Positions 1 through 38,215 of a stretch of 38,215 nt of DNA are shown here, piece by piece (the stretch's first letter is position 1; each line of letters begins with the position of its first letter). The position numbers and the translations under genes were made by a program. The notes under the pieces are model-generated. The model saw nothing but the letters and a program-made list of their open reading frames with translations. It was not told the DNA's origin and ran no database searches. The DNA is taken from the IMG/VR virus record IMGVR_UViG_3300028115_000055, positions 1-38,215 of that record; one strand, 5' to 3'. This stretch comes from a virus.

Positions 1-102
1 AAGTTAAACTTACAGCAGAAGAAGAAGCAGCTAAAGAAGCAGAAATTGCACAAGCAAATATTGATAAACAAGCTAGAGAAGCTGCTAGAGTAGAAAAAGA
101 AA
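1..102 (+). repeat. 102-nt perfect direct repeat, left copy
   Basis: Bases 1-102 are identical to 37520-37621. The first mismatch is at base 103 (T versus C). Beyond it both copies continue as homologous but diverged coding sequence, and the genes downstream differ (a C1q-like fibre here, an IPT/TIG fibre at the right end). It therefore behaves as a paralogous gene duplication and not as a clean terminal redundancy. Confidence 0.9.
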
Positions 103-182
103 TTAAAAAAGCATCTGCTAAACAAAAACTTTTAGATTTAGGATTAACTGAAGAAGAAATTAAATTAACATTTGGATTATAA
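1..182 (+). CDS. Tail-fibre chaperone-like small protein, 5' truncated
   Basis: The first complete codon is at base 3 and the stop (TAA) is at 180-182. The visible 59 residues are highly charged and helical (Ala/Glu/Lys-rich, ending LLDLGLTEEEIKLTFGL). They align end to end with the complete 70-residue protein at 37489-37701, so about 11 N-terminal residues are missing because the window begins inside the gene. The first 102 nt are identical to 37520-37621; the copies then diverge. A C1q-like fibre gene follows after 2 bp. By position between fibre genes it may be a fibre assembly factor, but no named family is recognised with certainty. Confidence 0.75.
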   Translation, partial: VKLTAEEEAAKEAEIAQANIDKQAREAARVEKEIKKASAKQKLLDLGLTEEEIKLTFGL

Positions 183-1039: not shown

Positions 1040-1960
1040 ATGGCGTATATAGGTAGAGATACAGATAAAATAAGTAATGTAGAGGTACTGGATAACATTA
1101 CCTTTGATGGTAGTTCATCATACACATTACAAAAAGGTGGAAGCAATTTTACACCTAGTTCTGCGAATACATTATTAGTTAGTATTAATGGTGTAGTTCA
1201 AGCTGGAAACTTTACTGTATCTGGTTCAACAATAGATTTTGGAACAGCAGTTGCTGGAACATCTACTTGCGATTTTATTTTACATTATGGAATTGGATTA
1301 ATTACATCAGTTAGTGATGGCACAGTTACTACTGCTAAACTTGGCGATAGTGCAGTTACTAATGCTAAAGTAAATGCTTCAGCAGCTATAGATTATTCTA
1401 AATTAAACTTAACTGGAAATATTGCATTAGCAGATTTATCAGCAACAGGAACTAAAGATGCTACAACTTTTTTAAGAGGAGATAATACTTTTGCAGAAGC
1501 TGGTGGTGGAAAAGTTTTACAAGTAGTTTCAACTGAAAAATCAGATACATTTAGTTCTTCTGGAACTAGCTTTCAAGATATAACAGGATTGACAGCAACT
1601 ATAACTCCATCTTCAACTTCAAGTAAAATTTTAGTTTTGGTTAATATATCATCTGGTGCAGATAATGGATATAAATATGGATTTAGACTTTTAAGAAGTG
1701 GAACAGTTATTAACGAAGGAGATTCAGCTAGTAGTAGAAAATTAGTTTCAATAGGATTACATAGTGGTTCAAGTATTTCATTTGAAAGTAGTAGTATTGT
1801 TTATTTAGATAGTCCAAACACTACATCTTCAAGACAATATGATATACAAGGTTCTACTGAAGGTTCAAATTTTTATGTAAATAGAACTTATACTGATACT
1901 GATGCTGCTTCTCATATGAGAGCTACATCAAATATAACTTTAATAGAGATAGGTGCATAA
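1040..1960 (+). CDS. Modular tail fibre / receptor-binding protein
   Basis: 306 residues. The N-terminal part (about 1-95) has the MAYIGRDTDKISNVEVLDNITFDGS type of start, a virion-attachment-like region. Next comes a low-complexity stalk (TTAKLGDSAVTNAKV), then the block LSATGTKD plus TTFLRGDNTFAEAGGG at about residues 135-157. The variable C-terminal domain begins KVLQVVSTEKSD. That block recurs in the fibre at 36545-37480. The C-terminal domain resembles the whole of the next fibre-like gene (ATITPSSTSSKILVLV versus ATITPTSTSNKIIILV). It ends in a TAATG overlap with the next gene. Confidence 0.75.
   Translation: MAYIGRDTDKISNVEVLDNITFDGSSSYTLQKGGSNFTPSSANTLLVSINGVVQAGNFTVSGSTIDFGTAVAGTSTCDFILHYGIGLITSVSDGTVTTAKLGDSAVTNAKVNASAAIDYSKLNLTGNIALADLSATGTKDATTFLRGDNTFAEAGGGKVLQVVSTEKSDTFSSSGTSFQDITGLTATITPSSTSSKILVLVNISSGADNGYKYGFRLLRSGTVINEGDSASSRKLVSIGLHSGSSISFESSSIVYLDSPNTTSSRQYDIQGSTEGSNFYVNRTYTDTDAASHMRATSNITLIEIGA
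1481..1509 (+). repeat. 29-nt identical fibre-junction sequence, copy 1
   Basis: Bases 1481-1509 are identical to 36911-36939 and encode DNTFAEAGG. In both fibre genes this marks the boundary between the conserved stalk and an unrelated C-terminal domain, as expected of a recombination joint. Confidence 0.85.
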
Positions 1961-2253: not shown

Positions 2254-2744
2254 TGGCAATAATAACTTTAAATAATAATTCTTTATCTAGTGTAACAGCA
2301 TTACCTGCTGGTGTAGGTGGTAAGGTTTTGCAAACTGTTACTAGCACAAATAATCAACAAATATCTACAACTTCAACATCTTTCGTTGCAACAAATTTAA
2401 AAGCTACAATCACTCCAACCTCAACTTCAAATAAAATTATTATACTTGTAAGTGGAACTGTGTATAACAATACAGTTGAAAAAAATACTTTAGTGACAGT
2501 ATATAGAGGTGGTGTTTCATCTGGAACAAATCTTGGTTCAGGTGGAAGTTTTAGTTCACTTTCAAGAGTTTATAGTGCTGGTGGAGAAATTGTAGTTCCT
2601 ACTGCTGTTACATTTGAAGATAATCCATCTACTACATCAGCTACACTTTTTGAAGTAGCAATAAAAATAGACCCAAGTGGTACAGGATATTTTGGTATTA
2701 ATAATGAAAAAACATCAATAGTTTTAATGGAGATAGCTGGATAA
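2253..2744 (+). CDS. Short fibre-tip protein homologous to the C-terminal domain of the 1040-1960 fibre
   Basis: 163 residues. After a 20-residue leader (MAIITLNNNSLSSVTALPAG) it is essentially one beta-rich domain starting GGKVLQTVTST and ending TSIVLMEIAG. It parallels the tip domain of the upstream fibre, which starts GGGKVLQVVST and ends SNITLIEIGA. This fibre therefore lacks the long stalk and encodes almost only the receptor-binding-like tip. One-base overlaps couple it to both neighbours. Confidence 0.65.
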   Translation: MAIITLNNNSLSSVTALPAGVGGKVLQTVTSTNNQQISTTSTSFVATNLKATITPTSTSNKIIILVSGTVYNNTVEKNTLVTVYRGGVSSGTNLGSGGSFSSLSRVYSAGGEIVVPTAVTFEDNPSTTSATLFEVAIKIDPSGTGYFGINNEKTSIVLMEIAG

Positions 2745-3079
2745 TGATTATAGAAGCAATATTAAAAATAAATCCTAACGCAGAAGTATCTGTAAGTGGT
2801 AATGATATTAATACAGTTCAATGGCACAATGGAACAACACCTATTTCTAAAGCTGACATACAAGCACAATTACCTATTGTAGAATTTGATATGGCTATGG
2901 AAGATTTAAGAGCCAAAAGAAATAAACTATTAGCAGATACAGATTACCTTGCGTTATCTGATAATACTATGAGTGCAGAGATGACAACTTACAGACAATC
3001 TTTAAGAGATATAACAAATGGTTTAACTACTGTTGCTGATGTTGAAGCTGTAGTTTTTCCTACTAAACCAGCTTCTTAA
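2744..3079 (+). CDS. Phage tail assembly chaperone-like protein (PF16778-like)
   Basis: 111 residues. Residues about 55-90 (LRAKRNKLLADTDYLALSDN, then YRQSLRDITNG) match the R..RN.LL..tD....D...YR..LRdi pattern of a phage tail assembly chaperone family found beside fibre genes. It is the last gene of the rightward virion operon in this window. Its 3' end overlaps by 17 bp the convergent metallophosphoesterase gene on the other strand, so no room remains for an independent terminator. Confidence 0.7.
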   Translation: MIIEAILKINPNAEVSVSGNDINTVQWHNGTTPISKADIQAQLPIVEFDMAMEDLRAKRNKLLADTDYLALSDNTMSAEMTTYRQSLRDITNGLTTVADVEAVVFPTKPAS

Positions 3080-3761
3080 TCCAATTACCTTTATCATCTA
3101 AGATCATAGGCATTAGTCTTGGAATACCATCTATAATCATTCCACAACCTATTATAAATCTAGTTTTAAAGTTTTTAGCATAAGCAAATGCCATTGATTT
3201 TTGATTAATAAGACAACCAACATTCATACCAAAGAATATATTATCTGGATTAGCCCAATAAGAGATAAGAAACTTAGTATGATAGTGGCCTTGTACACAA
3301 CTCATACCCATTGTTTGAGATACTTTTAATACATCTGCTGATCTACCATGAGTAAAAAAACATCTTGAACCATTAGATAATGTTAAAGTTAAATCATCAA
3401 TCCATTCCCATTTTTTAGTACCAAGAAAATCACCATAATCTTTTAGAAATTCTTTTGACATACCAAATTTTAATGCACGTCTATAAACAAGACTAGAATG
3501 GTTACTATCTACTTCTACCATTTTAGGAAATATATCTTCTAATTCTTTAATGTATTTTTTAGCTTCTTTTAATTCATGCCCTGCGCTAAATAAATCTGGA
3601 TTATGTTCATGCATAGAGATAGCATGAAAATCTAACAGATCACCTATATTAACAATCATGTCTGGTTTATATTCTTTTTTTATTTCTCTTAAAAATTCTA
3701 TGCTATCCTTGTGATGATAAGGAACGTGCATATCACTAATCACTAATATTCTTTTGTTCAT
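3063..3761 (-). CDS. Calcineurin-like metallophosphoesterase
   Basis: 232 residues from the chosen ATG. Metal-binding motifs appear in family order: SDMH (D10, H12), GDLLD (G40, D41), a SNHS block in the place of the usual GNHE, FTHG and GHYHT. The enzyme is expected to cleave phosphomono- or phosphodiester bonds with a dinuclear metal centre; the substrate is unknown. An in-frame ATG exists 7 codons upstream, but the chosen start has GGAG 4 nt before it. It overlaps the upstream 61-residue gene by 26 bp and the convergent chaperone gene by 17 bp. Confidence 0.82.
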   Translation of the reverse strand: MNKRILVISDMHVPYHHKDSIEFLREIKKEYKPDMIVNIGDLLDFHAISMHEHNPDLFSAGHELKEAKKYIKELEDIFPKMVEVDSNHSSLVYRRALKFGMSKEFLKDYGDFLGTKKWEWIDDLTLTLSNGSRCFFTHGRSADVLKVSQTMGMSCVQGHYHTKFLISYWANPDNIFFGMNVGCLINQKSMAFAYAKNFKTRFIIGCGMIIDGIPRLMPMILDDKGNWIKKLV

Positions 3762-5337: not shown

Positions 5338-5518
5338 TAGCTAACCTATCCATATGATTATATATTCTACCTATCTGTTTATCTACAGACATTATTTCTT
5401 CAGTAAGCATACCTACATGAATTTGTAGTTCAACAATTGTAATTAATACATAAGTAGATAAACCCATTAAAATAGTTCCTAATAATGCTATCATTGCTGT
5501 ATTAGTTTTTCTATTCAT
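5330..5518 (-). CDS. Small single-pass membrane protein with coiled coil
   Basis: 62 residues. A basic N-terminus (MNRKTNT) precedes a membrane helix (AMIALLGTILMGLSTYVLITIV) and then a soluble helix with coiled-coil character (LTEEIMSVDKQIGRIYNHMD). The topology would place the coiled coil in the periplasm. This is reminiscent of an inner-membrane spanin subunit, although no partner outer-membrane lipoprotein is evident. The start overlaps the upstream stop as ATGA. Confidence 0.6.
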   Translation of the reverse strand: MNRKTNTAMIALLGTILMGLSTYVLITIVELQIHVGMLTEEIMSVDKQIGRIYNHMDRLAND

Positions 5519-5679
5519 TTAGCTATTTTACCTTTATTGATACCTTTTTTAATAACATAATCCCTTGTTCCATTAGCACCTATATTAACTTCTTTTTTTA
5601 GGTACTTTGTTAAATTCATTTCTTTAAGTTTTTTCTCTGTATGCTTTTTAAACTGTTCTAATACTTTTGTATCTCTCAT
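5515..5679 (-). CDS. Small basic hypothetical protein
   Basis: 54 residues, Lys-rich (VLEQFKKHTEKKLKEMNLTK, then YLKKEVNIGANG and YVIKKGINKGK). It is soluble, with no recognised domain. It was read directly from the sequence as one link in a chain of ATGA-overlapping small genes; its ATG lies in the stop of the 46-residue upstream gene and its TGA in the start of the next. The coupling supports reality more than the sequence does. Confidence 0.55.
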   Translation of the reverse strand: MRDTKVLEQFKKHTEKKLKEMNLTKYLKKEVNIGANGTRDYVIKKGINKGKIAK

Positions 5680-5816
5680 TTATTTTTTCTCTTTCTTCTT
5701 AATATTTTTACTCTTGATTGCCATAACCAAACAGAAAATCTAATTGAGTATGTTTCTAAAAATGAAAACAAAGTGTCCAGACCACCAAAAAATTTTAATA
5801 AAAACCTATCAATCAT
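5676..5816 (-). CDS. Tiny amphipathic, C-terminally basic protein
   Basis: 46 residues: aromatic and hydrophobic N-terminus (MIDRFLLKFFGGLDTLFSFL), a second amphipathic stretch (IRFSVWLWQSRV) and a strongly basic tail (KILRRKRKNK). It probably associates with a membrane. GGAGG lies 9 nt before the ATG inside the preceding tiny gene, and start and stop overlap the neighbours as ATGA. Function unknown; pinholin-like or lysis-modulating activity is only a possibility. Confidence 0.5.
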   Translation of the reverse strand: MIDRFLLKFFGGLDTLFSFLETYSIRFSVWLWQSRVKILRRKRKNK

Positions 5817-5924: not shown

Positions 5925-6143
5925 TTATTTTTTCTTTTTGGAGTAATCCCTAGCCTTAATCATTTGAAGGTACTGTATGGCCTTCTCTATGTCTTGTAGG
6001 CCACCTTTTGAGCCGTGCCTACATATATATTTGATTGCCGCACCTTCTGCATATAGAAGTTTATTGGCATTAATAAATTTAGCAGGTTGGATAACCATTT
6101 TTTTGTAATGGTTACCCCCTACTTGTTTTTTATAAACACTCAT
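5925..6143 (-). CDS. DUF3310 family protein
   Basis: 72 residues from the ATG at 6143. The sequence VGGNHYKKMVIQPAKFINAN, then AEGAAIKYICRHGSKGGLQD and IEKAIQYLQ, is the DUF3310 signature: G.HY, a hydrophobic helix, KYI.R...KGG..D..KA..YL. The family is common in phages and has no established role, though it is often found near nucleotide or DNA metabolism genes. A longer reading from 6173 is possible, but the chosen ATG overlaps the upstream stop as TAATG. Confidence 0.85.
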   Translation of the reverse strand: MSVYKKQVGGNHYKKMVIQPAKFINANKLLYAEGAAIKYICRHGSKGGLQDIEKAIQYLQMIKARDYSKKKK

Positions 6144-7048
6144 TAGAATGATACATCCATGTAGTGAGAACAAAATTCATTGACACTACAATAATGCTGA
6201 CATCTAACGTCTTCACCTTTACGTTCTACAATAGCACAACCTTTACCTTCTACCATTTTTTCACCAACGATAAATTGTTTAGCTTGTTCTTTTGTAGGAA
6301 ATAAACGCCAAGCAGATTTTCTACCATCCTTCATAACAGCAAACTGATCTTCTTTACGCCATCTTTCTTTAGCTGTACACAAAGGTAGTTCCTTCATCTT
6401 CTCTGCGTCTTGGTGTAGTTTTATTCTAGCTTTAACATAATCTTCCTGTTGTTGATCTGACCACCTACGAATAGGTATCATTACAACTTGTTTTCTAGGA
6501 TAATTGTCTGATTGCATTACTCTTAATTTAGACCAATCTCGTAGTATAGCCATGATAGATAATGATTTAACTTTCAATTCTTTTTTATATCTAGTTAAAT
6601 CTTTTTGGTTTTTACGACATAGAAAATCAAGAACATTTAATTGTTGTTCCCATTCAACTTTACCATTTGTTAAAGCATCTAATGCTGACCAAGCTGAAGT
6701 AACTTTAAAATCTATAAGTTTACCGTCACCTGTAAGCAAATCAAAAGCACCAGATAATGTCCAACCGTTAGTGATGGTATCATCTTTATAGTACAATCTA
6801 CGTTCAGCTATATCACTAGCAACTTTTGCTCGTTCTATAATGTGGTGAACTGATTGGCCCAATAAAGAAAATATACGATCAGACACATCTTCTTTAATCA
6901 AATCATTATTTCTCATTTGCAAGACCCTAATTCTAGGGGGTGCAATCAAACGGGTAGTAGAGATGTCTGACCCACTACTATCATAGGGGTCATTCTTTAC
7001 AGCCCGTTCAATTACTTTTGGTAAGTTTGAGTTATTTGTGATAATCAT
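6143..7048 (-). CDS. PD-(D/E)XK nuclease with C-terminal Cys cluster (Cas4/RecB-like)
   Basis: 301 residues. Nuclease core: GQSVHHIIERA (H69, E72), LSGAFDLL (D103), LIDFKV (D113-x-K115) and a Q pair at 135-136, in the order of RecB/Cas4 family nucleases. Near the C-terminus, C283-x3-C287-x5-C293, with C271 upstream, resembles the iron-sulfur cluster ligands of Cas4 and AddB. It probably processes DNA ends in phage recombination or replication. It is coupled to the SSB-like gene upstream by a one-base overlap. No CRISPR genes are near. Confidence 0.82.
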   Translation of the reverse strand: MIITNNSNLPKVIERAVKNDPYDSSGSDISTTRLIAPPRIRVLQMRNNDLIKEDVSDRIFSLLGQSVHHIIERAKVASDIAERRLYYKDDTITNGWTLSGAFDLLTGDGKLIDFKVTSAWSALDALTNGKVEWEQQLNVLDFLCRKNQKDLTRYKKELKVKSLSIMAILRDWSKLRVMQSDNYPRKQVVMIPIRRWSDQQQEDYVKARIKLHQDAEKMKELPLCTAKERWRKEDQFAVMKDGRKSAWRLFPTKEQAKQFIVGEKMVEGKGCAIVERKGEDVRCQHYCSVNEFCSHYMDVSF

Positions 7049-34000: not shown

Positions 34001-34814
34001 AGATGGAAGACCAGTATATTTAAGAATACCACAAGACGAAACATCTAGATTAATTAATGGATTTTTATACAAAGCAATGAGTATTGGTGATGATGGAAAA
34101 ACAGGTACATTTGAAACACCTGCTGATTTATTTGGTTATTTAGGATCATCTGGATTACCTTCTATGAACCCAGTATTTAGTTTATTTGGTGATGTTATTG
34201 GATGGATGAATGGTACTACTCCATATGATGATTTTAGAGGAACTACAGCAATTGATAAAACAACTGACAAAGCAGATGATGCTAGAAAAAACAAAGAGTT
34301 ATTAAAATGGTTCTTTAATACTTATTCTGGTCAAGGTTTATATAAATTTAAAAGCAATGATTACAAAGAAATATCATCAGAATTAGAAGAAATGCTTGAT
34401 ATGCCAGTAGTAGGTAGAATACTTAATAGATTTGTAAAAATTGGTAATAATCCAATAGTAGGATATATGGAAAATTCTGAAGGTGGATTACAACAATACG
34501 AAAAAGAAAATGCTCAAGTTACACTTGATTTTAAAGAAGCTATTGTAAATTTAACTACGGGTGAGCCATTAACCAATAAACATAAAATGGCATTATTAGC
34601 AAGAAGTGAAAGTTTAAAAACTAATAACTTATTAATTGACAGATTATCTCAAATGGCTGGTGGTACAGTATTGTTACAAGATTTCTTAACTGAAACAGAC
34701 AGTAAAAAACAAGCTATTATGGTTATGAAGTTAGTTGAGTTTATTGAAAAAACTGATAATACGTATCCTATTAACTTTATTAAAGAACAAAAATCTGATA
34801 AAATAGAAGAATAA
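28056..34814 (+). CDS. Giant ejection protein (T7 gp16-like) with transglycosylase and HELGH metalloprotease motifs
   Basis: 2252 residues, the largest gene. Residues about 255-345 look like a lytic transglycosylase: MSFVSALESNNRNIY (candidate catalytic E265), then GGLFQFRKSG from 279. A hydrophobic stretch near 515-560 (PFMAAGCFAAGGTALVGSAG) could cross a membrane. FAHELGHLIDY at about 1103-1113 is a zincin motif (H1105, E1106, H1109). The C-terminal quarter (NYIPIVLGETQDGRPVYLRI, PQDETSRL) resembles LPD38. By analogy it opens peptidoglycan and spans the envelope during DNA entry; T7 gp16 is 1318 residues and has no protease. Confidence 0.82.
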   Translation: MKITALQLSQAGFDTDTIKSYVDTQIPLLEKAGFNKKEIYNSYGIVPIKSNSLLDTDMQEDTTAITENQLPLGKKTSLMKLQDEENANTIKSNKTSDGKYNLKNTTFDLLKNEDQAKIVNKIDEAYKLFKEDDDGRVGFIDNWMEKYYPNIAYEKEKFKSGVDLTLAESALNDEQVKLLENAQAKDAIAGNFGFNQETGRYLFDTNFEQAEDERKANEPVNVLHTAFSTGANSKTILEYAKQNYEFNDMQIMYLNEFMSFVSALESNNRNIYNADGSAGGLFQFRKSGFRTALNRFININRKINKDYELPYWVTEAFKHQDPTRLSPDEQKSLALANFLEMPKSEKYNRAGSDQLIKAIANGDVDAMKKLYIEYHHADYEKVEDIEAGVGQEYRLVDNQKLKERTDQYFDKFGTDKYDYETAQLAYWGNDNIVTKALEKLPANIGDKVLNAFGGKGYYNVFTNGYEQSVNGMLDRYYQVFIDDPNADPKEAIQKVFMYQEQRFDKDIVASAVTLVNDLPFMAAGCFAAGGTALVGSAGTAAPALPVICGAGGFALPEVIRSAYMRAIEDNFVGSFPEFLSHYMDKKTAIVAGKTAVIGGVTFGVGAKVKALTGSTTARLASEVSVMTTLGAALEGHVPTMRDFAHATVLVFGIHGSIRGMKMFKDIYTEYGRHPRDVIKDMEKDVTVRHQIENGQMPTLYEQGAKTVVEGLEKQTNIKLLPPPKFKNNEIVNVSTSSTEVGRVIGKETIGNEKVVIIEKTNGAKIPVLESEVRKAPNKPVEVKVEGDKININFAKDTSFAERKSNGEFNVNVVEVTKNKQNIYTEGTFKSNADLAVRDTGSAIRIVTKDGKTIANETITIQSKFYPELAKRFKENKEQKTEYNNAKELITKERNGLSSVAKKVEILFALKGNIEKMILRVGKDNVAIPRSAYEQLIKFTEKGEVKTAEIMGSEGRQVIMMLHPETGKILATIKGEKINGEIDAQATNYFDNFKEKEGVYFDRVNSSKDGDNWGIPRDIFTQEKNLPTDYANNSAAWKGLFNSAKGLDMIDLVELYKAFVKKSPELNNLPTGLNGYFQFKGKKSPRIVINEALQKNPEQFLMTFAHELGHLIDYLPNATLSRGNILGSIAALKGYMNKWIDGKNEGAKPLSAKEIEAIKSAAIKEAKAKEKETNAEIKQLEITPDTILKIFNDASAREKINPDFYNAFVKLPAEVKKLVVKDAMKGLMSQHMKAIADKINGKPTDSRLTNEAYKIFKDKFERIIKERGLVNKEWITTELKNLSAKWKPFDRSARADYTAYRDGPRELMADFMMAFMLRPQWVKNNAPRTWEMWMHYMDARPEVRANWERIQIDLKSGTDKRLGKVVSDIGNMFRETNEATIKRIEKDYKPDLADVLGTEAIDNFFWIYRRFRGTGSDRWHSPLAKELNWSIENYRYRHAKLKRYTDDMMRKVVKPAEELGYNSIDIGTMLFLRNIAESSQRNKLVNSLGIMKVNPELAKVLGNRTAKEIYDYYVKLHPQLFELTNEFYKVRQEMVIPELKESGMYDKELIAKLENNKEYVTFNVRKYLLERIEKYGPNSSATRFLKGSKGTFDDIMNVFNATLEKDMLLMVEAKRHRTMALTVKWLRENKNWMETYGKKYGAYGAKVKDRVVYKPKFIGKGKLEKPAKGMELFSYMKDGKMQHWHVNKFVAQSFKENPNGTMMMYKIMTGTGDVFRKMFTEYNPAFWPINLARDLNRSVKLLPNARYIDITGKGKNSLLKYYFKAVKPAYQSIFKDGTELTRWMESEGFLISMNEGYRGQAGSKALMKGLDPDTYMLERLLGDMQKKKGFDKFWNDTFGHLFSTLGNFARMFERTPKIAGTMYLKDAIKRGDLKMNDKEMMLRIQSEVGSPNFLRQGRLNAFTNNLYLYSNAFKEGWRADITRFREDPASVGGKFIAYNVMPKILQKMMEVGLFGASLGMVYKYGISDWDKINYIPIVLGETQDGRPVYLRIPQDETSRLINGFLYKAMSIGDDGKTGTFETPADLFGYLGSSGLPSMNPVFSLFGDVIGWMNGTTPYDDFRGTTAIDKTTDKADDARKNKELLKWFFNTYSGQGLYKFKSNDYKEISSELEEMLDMPVVGRILNRFVKIGNNPIVGYMENSEGGLQQYEKENAQVTLDFKEAIVNLTTGEPLTNKHKMALLARSESLKTNNLLIDRLSQMAGGTVLLQDFLTETDSKKQAIMVMKLVEFIEKTDNTYPINFIKEQKSDKIEE

Positions 34815-34816
34815 TT

Positions 34817-36196
34817 ATGACAATTACTACTACTATTATAAAAAACAGTTATTCTGGAAATGGAAGTCAAACAGTATTTCCATACACATTTAAAATTAAT
34901 ACGGATGCTGATATACAGGTTCTTGTTAGATCATCATTAGGTACTGAAACATTAAAAACATTAAGTACAGATTACACAGTTAGCGGTGCAGGTGATGCAG
35001 GTGGTGGTAATGTAACTATGATTGTTGCACCTGCAACTGGTGAAACATTAGTTATTAGAAGATCAACTACACAAACTCAAGAATTAGACTTAGTAGAAAA
35101 TGACCCTTTTAGTGCAGAAACAGTAGAAGGTGCATTTGATAAATCAGTATCATTAGTACAAGAAATTCAAGAAGAAGCAGATAGATCAATTAAATTATCA
35201 AGAACAAACACTATGACATCAACTGAATTTACAGTTGGTGCTACAGAACGTGCTAACAAAGTTCTTGCATTTGATAGTACAGGTGAATTATCAGTTGCTC
35301 AAGAATTAGGGCAATTTCAAGGCAATTGGTCATCTGGTGAAACATATGCTCAAAGAGATATTATAAAAGATACATCTAATGGAAACATTTATATTTGTAT
35401 AACAGCACATACTTCAAGTGGCGCACAACCTATTAGTACAAATACTGATAGCGCAAAATGGTCATTATTAGTTGATGCAGAAAGTGCAACTTCATCTGCA
35501 ACTGCGGCGGCGGCAAGTGCAACTGCGGCGGCTACATCTGAAACAAATGCGGCTACATCCGCTACTGCGGCGGCAACTTCAGCTACCAATGCGGCAACGT
35601 CTGAAACTAACGCATCAACTTCAGAAACTAATGCGGCGGCTAGTGCAACAACAGCATCTACTGCGGCAACCAATGCTCAAACAAGCGAAACTAATGCGGC
35701 TACCAGCGAAACTAACGCCGCAACTAGCGCAACCAACGCATCAAATTCTGCTACATCTGCGGCCAGTTCAGCAACTACAGCTACCACAAAAGCTAGTGAG
35801 GCATCTACATCAGCTACAAACGCCGCAAGTTCAGCGTCATCAGCATCTACATCTGCGACTAACGCATCTAACTCTGCAACTGCCGCAAGTACATCTGCGA
35901 CTAACGCCGCTAACTCTGCTACTGCATCTGCAAGTTCAGCAACATCTGCGGCTACTTCTGCTACTGCGGCTGAAGCGGCATATGATAATTTTGATGATAG
36001 ATATTTAGGGCCAAAAGCTAGTGACCCTACATTAGACAATGACGGTGATGCTTTGTTAGATGGGGCATTGTATTTTAACACAACAACAAATGTTATTAAA
36101 TATTATGATGGATCAAGTTGGTCACCAGTTGAAGCAGTAGATACATCTAATTTAGCAACAAATGGGTTTAGCATTGCAATGGCGATAGCCCTGTAG
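34817..36196 (+). CDS. Primary tail fibre with gp17-like N-terminus and Ala/Ser/Thr heptad stalk
   Basis: 459 residues. Residues 1-150 (SYSGNGSQTVFPYTFKINTD, ENDPFSAETVEGAFDKSVSL) match the T7 gp17 N-terminal attachment domain. About 172-218 (GNWSSGETYAQRDIIKDTSN, then YICITAHTSS) resembles a ChiA/CBM5-12 carbohydrate-binding module. About 225-390 is a repeat stalk of SATNAAT/SETNAAT units. The end, DRYLGPKASDPTLDNDG and then GALYFNTTTNVIKYYDGSSW, is a common fibre C-terminal motif. It probably anchors the other fibre proteins, which lack a gp17 N-terminus. Confidence 0.88.
   Translation: MTITTTIIKNSYSGNGSQTVFPYTFKINTDADIQVLVRSSLGTETLKTLSTDYTVSGAGDAGGGNVTMIVAPATGETLVIRRSTTQTQELDLVENDPFSAETVEGAFDKSVSLVQEIQEEADRSIKLSRTNTMTSTEFTVGATERANKVLAFDSTGELSVAQELGQFQGNWSSGETYAQRDIIKDTSNGNIYICITAHTSSGAQPISTNTDSAKWSLLVDAESATSSATAAAASATAAATSETNAATSATAAATSATNAATSETNASTSETNAAASATTASTAATNAQTSETNAATSETNAATSATNASNSATSAASSATTATTKASEASTSATNAASSASSASTSATNASNSATAASTSATNAANSATASASSATSAATSATAAEAAYDNFDDRYLGPKASDPTLDNDGDALLDGALYFNTTTNVIKYYDGSSWSPVEAVDTSNLATNGFSIAMAIAL
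35485..35975 (+). repeat. Degenerate 21-bp coding repeats of the fibre stalk
   Basis: About twenty imperfect units encode seven-residue repeats such as SATNAAT and SETNAAT. GCG and GCC alanine codons make the tract far richer in G and C than the rest of the genome. The repetition opens long artefactual reading frames on the other strand and in another frame. Confidence 0.8.
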
Positions 36197-36210
36197 TATA
36201 AGGATAATAT

Positions 36211-36537
36211 ATGGCACAAAATTTTAGAAGATACACAAGCAATGATGTAGGAACATCAGCATCAACTTTATTTACTGCTGACAGTTATGATACTGTAGTT
36301 GGTATATCAGTTTCAAATGTAACAGCATCTGCTGTTGTAGCATCTGTATATATTAATGATGGTTCTAACGATATTTATTTAGTTAAAGACGCACCAATAC
36401 CAAGTGGTTCATCATTACAAGTATTAGATGGAGGAGCAAAGTTTGTTGTTCAATCTGGTGATGCTTTAAAAGTAATATCAGACACAGCTTCATCTTTAGA
36501 TGTTTGGGTATCAACTGTAGATGCAATAAGTACATAG
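36211..36537 (+). CDS. Small structural protein of the fibre region
   Basis: 108 residues, beta-rich: YTSNDVGTSASTLFTADSYD, TVVGISVSNVTASAVVASVY, then KDAPIPSGSSLQVLDGGAKF and VVQSGDALKVISDTASS. This is the pattern of small virion proteins next to phage fibre genes, probably one beta-sandwich. AGGAT lies 7 nt before ATG. Specific role unknown; adhesin or fibre-linker are both plausible. Confidence 0.65.
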   Translation: MAQNFRRYTSNDVGTSASTLFTADSYDTVVGISVSNVTASAVVASVYINDGSNDIYLVKDAPIPSGSSLQVLDGGAKFVVQSGDALKVISDTASSLDVWVSTVDAIST

Positions 36538-36544
36538 GAGATTA

Positions 36545-37480
36545 ATGCCGTTTATAGGAAATCAACCAGCATTAAGTTACACAAGTTTTGCTAAGCAAGA
36601 CTTCACTACAAGTGCGACTACATCTTACACATTAGATAATCCAGTTGCTAACGCAAATGAGTTAGCATTATTTATTAACTTTGTAAGACAAGAGCCTACA
36701 ACTGCTTATACTGCTAGTGGTACAAGTTTAACTTTAACAAGTGCAACATCTGCATCAGATGATATGTACTGTGTGTTTTTAGGTAAAGCTGTTCAAACAG
36801 TAAATCCTCCAAATGGTTCAGTAGGTGCTTCACAGATTGCTGATAGTTCAATCGCTTTAGGAAAGTTATCTGCTACTGGTACAAAAGACAGTACAACATT
36901 TCTAAGAGGCGATAATACTTTTGCAGAAGCTGGTGGTGGTGCTATGGAACTACTACATACTGCAACAGGATCAGATGTTTCTTCAATAGATATTAATGGA
37001 TATTTTACTTCTGATTATGACCATTATAAATTAATTTATTCAGTTTATGCTGCAACAAATAATACAGATACTATGGTTAGAATAATGCAAGGTGGTTCAG
37101 TAATTACTGCTTCAAATTATTGGTTTGCTGGAAATGCTTGGTATTATGATGGAACTTATAGTCAATCAAGTAATGCTGTTGGATTTAATACAAATTATAT
37201 TGGAATTGCATCAACCGATAATACAAGTAATTCTCAATATCCAACAACAGGAGAAATGCTTTTATCCAATCCATTAAGCACAAGTCAAAACACTACTATA
37301 ACAACAAATAGCATTGGATATAATTCTGGAGCTGGAGCTGGTCAGCCACCTACTGCAATAAGAACTTGGAATTACGCTGGTACATATATTTCAACAACAG
37401 CAACTTCTGGAATTTCTTTTGGATATATTGGTGGAAATATTAATGGAACAATTAGATTATATGGAATGAAAAATAGTTAG
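36545..37480 (+). CDS. Modular tail fibre / receptor-binding protein
   Basis: 311 residues. N-terminal segment MPFIGNQPALSYTSFAKQDF and on (1-95, beta-rich, cf. NELALFINFVRQEPTTAYTA), then the stalk ASQIADSSIALGK. The junction block is LSATGTKD plus TTFLRGDNTFAEAGGG. The C-terminal domain is distinct (AMELLHTATGSDVSSIDING and on, ending GNINGTIRLYGMKNS). The same junction block occurs in the fibre at 1040-1960 with a different tip. GGAG lies 5 nt before ATG. Confidence 0.78.
   Translation: MPFIGNQPALSYTSFAKQDFTTSATTSYTLDNPVANANELALFINFVRQEPTTAYTASGTSLTLTSATSASDDMYCVFLGKAVQTVNPPNGSVGASQIADSSIALGKLSATGTKDSTTFLRGDNTFAEAGGGAMELLHTATGSDVSSIDINGYFTSDYDHYKLIYSVYAATNNTDTMVRIMQGGSVITASNYWFAGNAWYYDGTYSQSSNAVGFNTNYIGIASTDNTSNSQYPTTGEMLLSNPLSTSQNTTITTNSIGYNSGAGAGQPPTAIRTWNYAGTYISTTATSGISFGYIGGNINGTIRLYGMKNS
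36911..36939 (+). repeat. 29-nt identical fibre-junction sequence, copy 2
   Basis: Identical to 1481-1509 and encodes DNTFAEAGG. It separates the shared stalk from the divergent tip domain of this fibre. Confidence 0.85.
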
Positions 37481-37488
37481 GATTTATT

Positions 37489-37701
37489 ATGACAATGTAC
37501 AAATTATTAAATGGTGAAAAAGTTAAACTTACAGCAGAAGAAGAAGCAGCTAAAGAAGCAGAAATTGCACAAGCAAATATTGATAAACAAGCTAGAGAAG
37601 CTGCTAGAGTAGAAAAAGAAACTAAAAAAGCATCTGGCAAACAAAAACTTTTAGACTTAGGATTAACAGAAGAAGAGGTAAAGGCATTAATAGGCATATA
37701 A
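37489..37701 (+). CDS. Tail-fibre chaperone-like small protein, complete copy
   Basis: 70 residues: a short N-terminal strand (MTMYKLLNGEKVKLT), a long charged helix (AEEEAAKEAEIAQANIDKQA, then REAARVEKETKK) and an end LLDLGLTEEEVKALIGI. It has the size and composition of small helical proteins coded after fibres in marine phages. It is the intact homologue of the gene cut by the left window edge, with 102 identical nt. It sits between two fibre genes; its chaperone role is inferred. Confidence 0.7.
   Translation: MTMYKLLNGEKVKLTAEEEAAKEAEIAQANIDKQAREAARVEKETKKASGKQKLLDLGLTEEEVKALIGI
37520..37621 (+). repeat. 102-nt perfect direct repeat, right copy
   Basis: Identical to bases 1-102 and lies inside the chaperone-like gene. 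The identity ends at 37622, and the last part of the gene has drifted (EEVKALIGI versus EEIKLTFGL). Confidence 0.9.
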
Positions 37702-37702
37702 T

Positions 37703-38215
37703 ATGAGCGAAGTAAAAGTAAATAAAATCAGTCCTAGAACAGGAACCACGTTCACAATAGGTGATGCCGGAGACACGGTTACTACTGCAGGAGACATTTC
37801 TGCATTAAACATTACAGCAACTAATTCTTTAACTGTAAATGGTGAATCAGTTACTTCAGCGAATCCAACTTTTACATCTATTTCACCTGATACTATTACT
37901 AACGATCAAACATCTATTACAATTACAGGAAGTAATTTTGTATCAATCCCTGTTGTTGAAGCAATCTCAACAACTGGAGTCATCACACCAGCAGACAGTG
38001 TAACATTTAATAACTCAACATCACTTACTTGTAATTTTACATTAACAACAGATGGAACTTATTATATTAGAATTGAAAACAATGACGGTCTAGCGGTTCG
38101 ATCATCAACTGCAGTATTAACAGTATCAGATGCACCTGTATGGACCACTGCAGCAGGTGATCTTGGTACTATTGCTGGAGATTTTTCCGGAACTGTTGCA
38201 ACCGTTGCAGCAACA
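37703..38215 (+). CDS. Fibre protein with IPT/TIG-like Ig domain, 3' truncated
   Basis: 171 residues before the window ends with no stop. The start MSEVKVNKISPRTGTTFTIG, then DAGDTVTTAGDISALNITAT, is a fibre N-terminus common in marine phages. PTFTSISPDTITNDQTSITI, then TGSNF, is an IPT/TIG-like immunoglobulin fold (about residues 58-145). APVWTTAAGDLGTIAGDFSG at about 147 begins an Ig-like putative repeat. It begins 1 bp after the chaperone-like gene. It is another unit of the fibre/chaperone array; length and tip domain are unknown. Confidence 0.75.
   Translation, partial: MSEVKVNKISPRTGTTFTIGDAGDTVTTAGDISALNITATNSLTVNGESVTSANPTFTSISPDTITNDQTSITITGSNFVSIPVVEAISTTGVITPADSVTFNNSTSLTCNFTLTTDGTYYIRIENNDGLAVRSSTAVLTVSDAPVWTTAAGDLGTIAGDFSGTVATVAAT

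Follow-up and report, generated by a model that had tools for sequence, protein, structure and literature searches.

The locus considered here raises the question of whether a short stretch of DNA, identical in two fibre genes of one phage and situated between a conserved stalk and unrelated tips, marks a site at which receptor-binding tips are exchanged by recombination. The DNA analyzed (the window) comprises 38,215 nt of the record IMGVR_UViG_3300028115_000055; it carries a tailed-phage gene set that includes the large terminase, the head-tail connector, the major head protein and a tail protein, and it also encodes an ORF of 2252 amino acids. We regard it as likely that the 29-nt joint common to two of its fibre genes is part of an exchange zone of about 90 nt that ends a cassette made up of a tip and the small gene behind it, and that recombination swaps such cassettes while the head of the fibre stays in place.

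An array of small fibre genes, most of them followed by a small gene, lies behind a tail-fibre gene (34817-36196; matches to PHROG tail fibre and tail protein families) on the plus strand, as do all other elements of the array. This array leaves the contig at its right end and resumes at its left. On the right side, fibre gene B (36545-37480; PHROG 18673) is composed of a head of type I, the joint and a family-3 tip; it is followed by a putative chaperone gene (37489-37701), which is assigned to tip B through the co-variation of tip family and small-gene N-terminus, and by an open ORF (37703-38215) that is cut by the contig end, has no PHROG match, and is named fibre gene E from its position only. 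On the left side stand a further copy of the small gene, truncated by the contig start (1-182, with its 3' tract at 105-182; repeat D1, 91%), fibre gene C (185-694; PHROG 11660, tail protein), whose N-terminus but not its tip is common to relatives, and an XkdW-type small gene (707-1036; PF09636, E 1.1e-17). Fibre gene A (1040-1960; PHROG 18673 and 6942, tail fibre) comes next, with a head of type II, a linker containing the joint and a tip with a predicted TNF-like lectin fold, and then its small gene, likewise a putative chaperone (1960-2253; PHROG 9114). Fibre gene D (2253-2744; PHROG 6942), whose tip is akin to that of A (52% identity over 44 amino acids, E 2e-9), is followed by a tail assembly chaperone gene (2744-3079; PF16778, E 9.9e-9), so that a small gene stands behind each of C, A and D. 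The original prediction had taken A and B for distant genes, an impression created by the cut of the contig: in two relatives, G009 (locus L214) and G011 (L216), the array is uncut, E is missing, and the starts of B and A lie about 1.7 kb apart within one array, which makes the two genes neighbours. Exchange cassettes may account for assemblies like this one breaking inside the fibre array.

The two copies of the joint (1481-1509 in A, 36911-36939 in B) are an exact match that cannot be extended on either side, and they code for DNTFAEAGG plus two bases of the following Gly codon. As had been predicted, the residues upstream (LSATGTKD-TTFLRG) are conserved with synonymous drift, since 9 of the 14 codons for identical amino acids differ synonymously, in comparison with none of the nine codons of the joint (Fisher p 0.0026); the tips downstream are indeed unrelated, belong to families 1 (A) and 3 (B), and yield no significant match to each other. 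The joint forms the 3' third of an 89-nt repeat (D2, 82%) in the linker between the N-terminal head and the tip. The two copies of this repeat (1421-1509 in A, 36851-36939 in B) are the putative 5' exchange zones of the two genes, and it is in these zones that the homologies seen among fibres with the same head and among fibres with the same tip overlap. All 16 differences between the repeats fall within the first 60 nt; if they were evenly spread, the chance of finding none in the last 29 nt would be 0.0008. For the A/B pair, nine identical codons have a probability of 0.0055, given identical residues and independent codon draws. Because this pair was a chosen one, these probabilities are only suggestive, and the identity of the two joints in the window is no proof that A and B exchanged with each other.

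How the tips behave among close relatives can be followed in G009 and G011. Large terminase and connector were compared against 28 IMG/VR records, in which matches were found for the terminase in three (one of them weak) and for the connector in 13. Close relatives within this set are limited to G009 and G011, and the connectors of the three genomes are 98% and their terminases 95-97% identical. The DNA of gene B in the two relatives matches window positions 34001-36936 at 93% and 85% (34001 being the first position of the compared stretch and not a border of homology) and then ceases to match inside the joint; the B tip is of family 3 in the window and of family 0 in G011. Gene A is 89-90% identical to its counterparts up to position 1305 or 1393, continues with a linker of variable length, and then regains 64-65 nt at 97-98% identity that end at 1503, within the joint, before unrelated tips (family 1 in the window, family 4 in both G009 and G011). 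The N-termini of fibres C and D are likewise retained, and their tips differ from those of both relatives. Fixed stalk-tip pairs with uniform divergence over the junction, the pattern that would have spoken against a swap of tips, are therefore not what these genomes exhibit: the relatives keep the stalk and switch the tip. The B joints of G009 and G011 differ synonymously from that of the window, and the latter equals the window's A joint, which fits a tip that may have arrived with its own joint. The frame of fibre B in L214 (reverse complement 5380-5778) is broken at the joint, through either an assembly error or a real frameshift. The LNGWSE tip of fibre A in L214 and L216 has a first part that is common to both genomes and then diverges, which hints at a further breakpoint inside this tip. 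In five other records (G004, G005, G008, G012 and G024; loci L098, L107, L118, L152 and L147), the connector is only 40-42% identical to that of the window, yet head B is 82-88% identical at the amino acid level; heads hence move between lineages as well, or they are unusually conserved.

The same mixing is seen in a wider set of fibres. They were chosen for their resemblance to A, to B or to the joint, with the best 80 of 120 and the best 80 of 211 relatives retained, so that the sampling of head types is not free of bias. After contexts with the same sequence around the joint had been merged, 141 distinct ones remained; 33 of these were dropped for lack of a full head or a 100-aa tip, and 108 were analyzed. 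Head types were set at 65% identity, a first clustering having lumped 105 of the 141 heads into one group. The 108 contexts exhibit 31 head-tip combinations. Among 446 pairs whose heads are at least 90% identical, the tips are at least 70% identical in six and less than 35% identical in 327; 13 pairs have tips at least 70% identical, and the heads of five of them are less than 45% identical. Near-identical tips were found on unrelated heads; tip B, for instance, occurs with 88% amino acid identity on an unrelated head in L083. The fibres thus have the properties of modular receptor-binding proteins, namely a conserved N-terminus with unrelated C-termini, and one tip on different heads. As to direct combinations of the two window genes, no family-3 (B) tip was found on 21 type II (A) heads, and a family-1 (A) tip is present on two of 35 type I (B) heads, 25 of which carry a tip of family 0. 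Some dependence between head and tip remains (Mantel r 0.21, reached by 0 of 999 permutations); their adjusted mutual information (AMI) is 0.183 over all 108 contexts (matched by 0 of 999 permutations), 0.026 without tip family 0, and 0.044 when restricted to fibres with a short downstream ORF. According to the IMG/VR labels, from which the origin of the contigs was taken, 34 pairs among 103 contexts come from the same metagenome; 12 of these pairs have the same head type, and nine of the 12 have different tip families, including two with head DNA that is 94% and 92% identical.

The borders of the exchanged DNA can be read from the positions at which homology begins and ends, counted here in nucleotides from the F of FLRG. 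Among 485 pairs in which the head DNA is the same but the tip families differ, homology is lost at +15 to +44 in 437 pairs, later in 28, and early or out of register in 20; a stricter scoring of 655 pairs places the end at +15 to +44 in 620, later in 12, before -6 in two, and early or out of register in 21. Of 47 pairs in which different heads carry tips of one family, homology starts 21-92 nt before the F in all but one, where it starts at -225. The ranges of head-side and tip-side homology overlap over about 90 nt, which is the size of the repeat in the window. At the other end, three pairs with heads only 19-32% identical have DNA that is 90-97% identical from -29, -29 and -48 to +800, +805 and +726, respectively; the stops of the downstream gene lie at +802, +802 and +728, and homology ends within 3 nt of the stop in each of these pairs, two of which have a locus in common. 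In a fourth tip-sharing pair (heads 44% identical), homology starts at -111 and continues to +820, which lies 18 nt beyond the stop at +802, and in a fifth, formed by tip B of the window and the unrelated-headed fibre of L083, the DNA is 93% identical until the contig of L083 ends. Three of these five pairs, the fourth among them, are combinations of L049, L070 and L089, loci that have one and the same tip. Since homology spans the tip through to the stop of the small gene, tip and small gene together form the swapped unit, which holds for at least two tips independent of each other. The predicted recombinational swap of tips is hence strongly supported as an exchange, but its site has to be redrawn: the zone measures about 90 nt rather than 29, and the gene behind the tip usually moves with it. 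Conserved motifs border the variable segments, as they do in the motif-bounded adhesin exchange of the T-even type.

What kind of gene travels with the tip, and what ends the cassette on its far side? In 99 fibres with a short downstream ORF, the tip family corresponds closely to the N-terminus of the small gene (AMI 0.875), in comparison with an AMI of 0.061 between head and small-gene N-terminus in the 75 fibres with a typed head; the short ORFs after family-3 tips all fall into one N-terminal cluster (17 of 17). The C-terminal end follows another pattern: a tag of the KQKLLDLGL type ends the small genes after tip families 1, 2, 3, 5, 6 and 8 (58 of 99). It is encoded by a conserved 3' tract (KKASGKQKLLDLGL...; 37624-37701 behind tip B), in which one 21-nt coding is common to most contexts. 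Between tip families (1091 pairs), the median extent of ungapped homology from the start of the tag is 2 nt on the upstream side and 78 nt on the downstream side, the latter being the position of the stop. Codon identity within the tract is for the most part well above expectation, as for Ala (0.98, expected 0.46), Ser (0.93, expected 0.29) and Gly (0.94, expected 0.44), with exceptions at some codons. Among the matches listed in a scan with the peptide of the tag and the loci already collected, the 21-nt coding is found in 81 of 115 contexts (0.45% expected), and there are 36 dissimilar N-termini among 108. This coding includes GGC, which accounts for 5% of the Gly codons in these fibres. With its tip-specific N-terminus and shared 3' tract, the small gene makes of itself and the tip a cassette with two ends that are conserved as DNA.

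The two small-gene copies of the window (1-182 and 37520-37701) differ at one of 104 N-terminal nucleotides and at 16 positions of the 78-nt tract, as if a tip cassette had recently been duplicated into the neighbouring position, with the crossover falling in the tract. The cassette is not built in the same manner throughout. Shared ends of other kinds occur on other small genes, among them that of A, which is without the KQKL tract and has another shared C-terminus instead (DNA 2137-2233) with an 89-91% match to the terminal part of another small gene in G009 and G011; tip family 0 is mostly without a small gene, and a long ORF follows it in 26 of 37 cases. The small genes are probably chaperones. 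Of those in the window, 2744-3079 matches PF16778 and 707-1036 matches XkdW; the genes 1960-2253 and 37489-37701 have no Pfam match, and the PHROG matches of the latter are marginal (E 0.04-0.08).

The tip of fibre A was assessed through an AF2 model (whole-model pLDDT 73.5), which consists of a folded head (residues ~12-83), a low-confidence stretch (86-153) that holds the joint, and a folded tip from residue 155 onwards with pLDDT values mostly above 80 and a dip at 221-250. The modelled tip is a jelly-roll that matches TNF-like lectins over its whole length (Z 13.0-14.3; with 9ib7, Z 14.3, rmsd 1.9 and 124 aligned residues; with 2wq4, Z 13.5); it is equally close to chlamydial Pgp3, and C1q and TNF proteins are less close. 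This likeness makes it plausible that such tips bind host glycans. The model of fibre B was unusable (mean pLDDT 44.8).

If, on a rival reading, the constraint acted on the protein only, the linker peptide would be needed as such, illegitimate swaps would occur anywhere, selection would keep the joins at the domain boundary, and the identity of the DNA would reflect codon bias. We hold this to be rather improbable, although the joint does lie in the low-confidence stretch of the A model, where joins may be tolerated; moreover, over codons -9 to +7 of fibres with different heads and tips the mean synonymous identity (0.62) is close to that expected from codon usage (0.59), with several joint codons at 1.2-1.8 times the expected value and a few below it, and the value of 0.0055 for the A/B pair is a modest one. 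The coding preferences weigh against it. DNTFAEAGG in any synonymous coding was found in 62 stretches of viral contigs, 48 of which have the same 26-nt coding, and after merging repeats the exact coding of the joint is present in 43 of 58 or 45 of 60 distinct contexts, as opposed to 2.4% expected from codon usage. Head type 0 is found on 24 of the 45 exact joints, and the coding is exact for 6 of 12 other typed heads and for 15 of 21 untyped heads. One coding likewise dominates the 3' tract, including the rare GGC, and the breaks of homology cluster at both tracts. Chance or plain codon bias as a full explanation was consequently dropped for the pooled codings, but not for the single A/B pair. 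A second adapter (ADTDEFLVSDAGTLKRIDYSLIKGGG and variants), unrelated to the first, links several head types to several tip families in 30 distinct contexts (L139, L145, L148 and L219 are examples among the fetched loci), so that there is more than one standard linker.

The tracts might also be kept alike by a constraint on RNA or expression (translation coupling, RNA structure or a promoter) with no role in exchange, a reading to which we give little credence. The 3' tract most often ends in the codons ATA GGA GTA, 62 of 67 tracts have an ATG 0-4 nt behind them, and AGGAG at the end of the tract, just before the next gene, is presumably ribosome-binding-like. This motif, however, is found in neither tract copy of the window, the last codons of which lie at 37690-37701 and 171-182, the most constrained codons of the tract (GCA TCT GGC) are located some 50-60 nt further upstream of AGGAG, and the breaks of homology at the tracts would be left unexplained. 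RNA folding of the four tract copies of the window is no better than that of shuffles (z -0.95 to 0.96), and promoter-like matches over 36500-38215 are fewer than the shuffle mean. Least probable of all, and in our view very improbable, is a site-specific or programmed switch at the joint by an invertase, an integrase-like capture of cassettes, or a diversity-generating retroelement. Such systems would resemble the locus in having two conserved DNA ends around a variable cassette, but the two ends are unlike each other in sequence and the tips differ as whole domains; no PHROG or Pfam match to an integrase, invertase or reverse transcriptase was obtained among the scanned ORFs of the window, a scan that left out some small ORFs and met an array broken by the contig.

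The pattern of the homologies shows exchange at both tracts, and homologous recombination is the best-fitting mechanism, with crossovers that we infer to lie within the tracts. During co-infection, recombination would take place in the linker zone of about 90 nt and in the 3' tract of the small gene, one tip-chaperone pair would be replaced by another, and the N-terminal head would stay. The crossover would proceed by homology inside the tracts, with the participation of a phage nuclease and host or phage recombination proteins. The window encodes a candidate enzyme, an exonuclease on the minus strand (6143-7048; PHROG 2139, E 1.8e-43, with no Pfam match), as well as a Ref-like nuclease; no annealing protein was recognized in the window. 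Crossovers of this type would fit relaxed phage recombination, which, according to the parts of De Paepe 2014 (PMC3945230) drawn on here, has been demonstrated for temperate coliphages, with no exchange seen between virulent and temperate phages.

Head A occurs with 91% amino acid identity in HTVC100P and head B with 82% in HTVC019P, the DNA of the joint or the 3' tract is present in several cultured pelagiphages, and HTVC204P has the joint, a tip and a tagged small gene in a row; the recorded host of both HTVC019P and HTVC035P is the Pelagibacter strain HTCC1062. With such cultured relatives, the window phage would be of the pelagiphage (SAR11) type, an assignment made through fibre genes, which move between phages. 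In HTVC100P (L220), the annotation places an endonuclease VII gene (3248-3652) in the interval from the tail fibre to the small fibre array. SAR11 bacteria rank with the most numerous cells of the ocean, and how their phages track changing host surfaces is a standing question that becomes directly testable with defined cassette ends. As a tentative proposal, which we consider possible but doubtful, there might be a community-wide system of tip-chaperone cassettes whose standard DNA ends, coding for the linker at the 5' side and for the chaperone tail at the 3' side, would allow their insertion into several anchor genes of one genome and into phages of different lineages; the DNA of the tracts would then stay similar owing to its function as a port of exchange. 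If this were true, a pool of tips would be common to lineages whose core genomes diverge. The junctions can be read by long reads or with primers on the tracts, which would give the tips, exchange rates and partners per water sample, and they offer a rule for annotation by which fibre genes, mostly labelled 'hypothetical protein', are cut into head, tip and small gene.

Tip swapping as such was already known; it is the paired DNA tracts around a tip-chaperone cassette that appear to be new, as no description of them was found in the literature searched, which included few subscription papers and no preprints. Phages and genes of this kind also figure in the metaviromic islands of pelagiphages (PMC3909814), where, in C1q-domain receptor-binding proteins, read recruitment is far higher for the N-terminal end than for the C1q domain and where XkdW and tail fibre assembly proteins are among the island genes; the word stem 'recombin' is absent from that paper, and its sections considered here contain neither junction tracts nor a tip-chaperone cassette. 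Long-read viromes have likewise brought to light a pelagiphage genomic island with tail fibre genes as borders (PMC6487183), in passages that add nothing on junctions. A survey of domain mosaicism (PMC10684548) counts tail fibres among the phage proteins with the strongest mosaicism and with exchange of recent date; it is a survey of protein profiles, and exchange tracts at the DNA level do not figure in the passages used. The tailspikes of Vi01-like phages (PMC3220722) are alike in having a short Gly-rich boundary motif after which the homology between tailspikes breaks, but they are enzymes of myoviruses, and a paired 3' tract does not appear in the passages on which we draw. A further likeness is offered by the Alteromonas module (PMC10579305), as far as the part of that paper considered here describes it: a tail fibre and its cognate chaperone are common to unrelated phages, and in fibre and chaperone there is an insertion with a conserved region on either side. 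Other proteins are involved, however, and the whole module is shared, whereas here the tips are combined with many heads. A parallel is found in the T-even adhesins, for which a study cited by title in PMC12529663 names conserved motifs as the sites at which specificity is swapped by recombination. From what that source conveys in the part used here, these motifs are glycine-rich and lie between hypervariable segments inside the adhesin gp38; in the fibres described here, by contrast, one tract lies in the linker between head and tip, its counterpart closes a separate small gene, and tip and small gene make up the unit.
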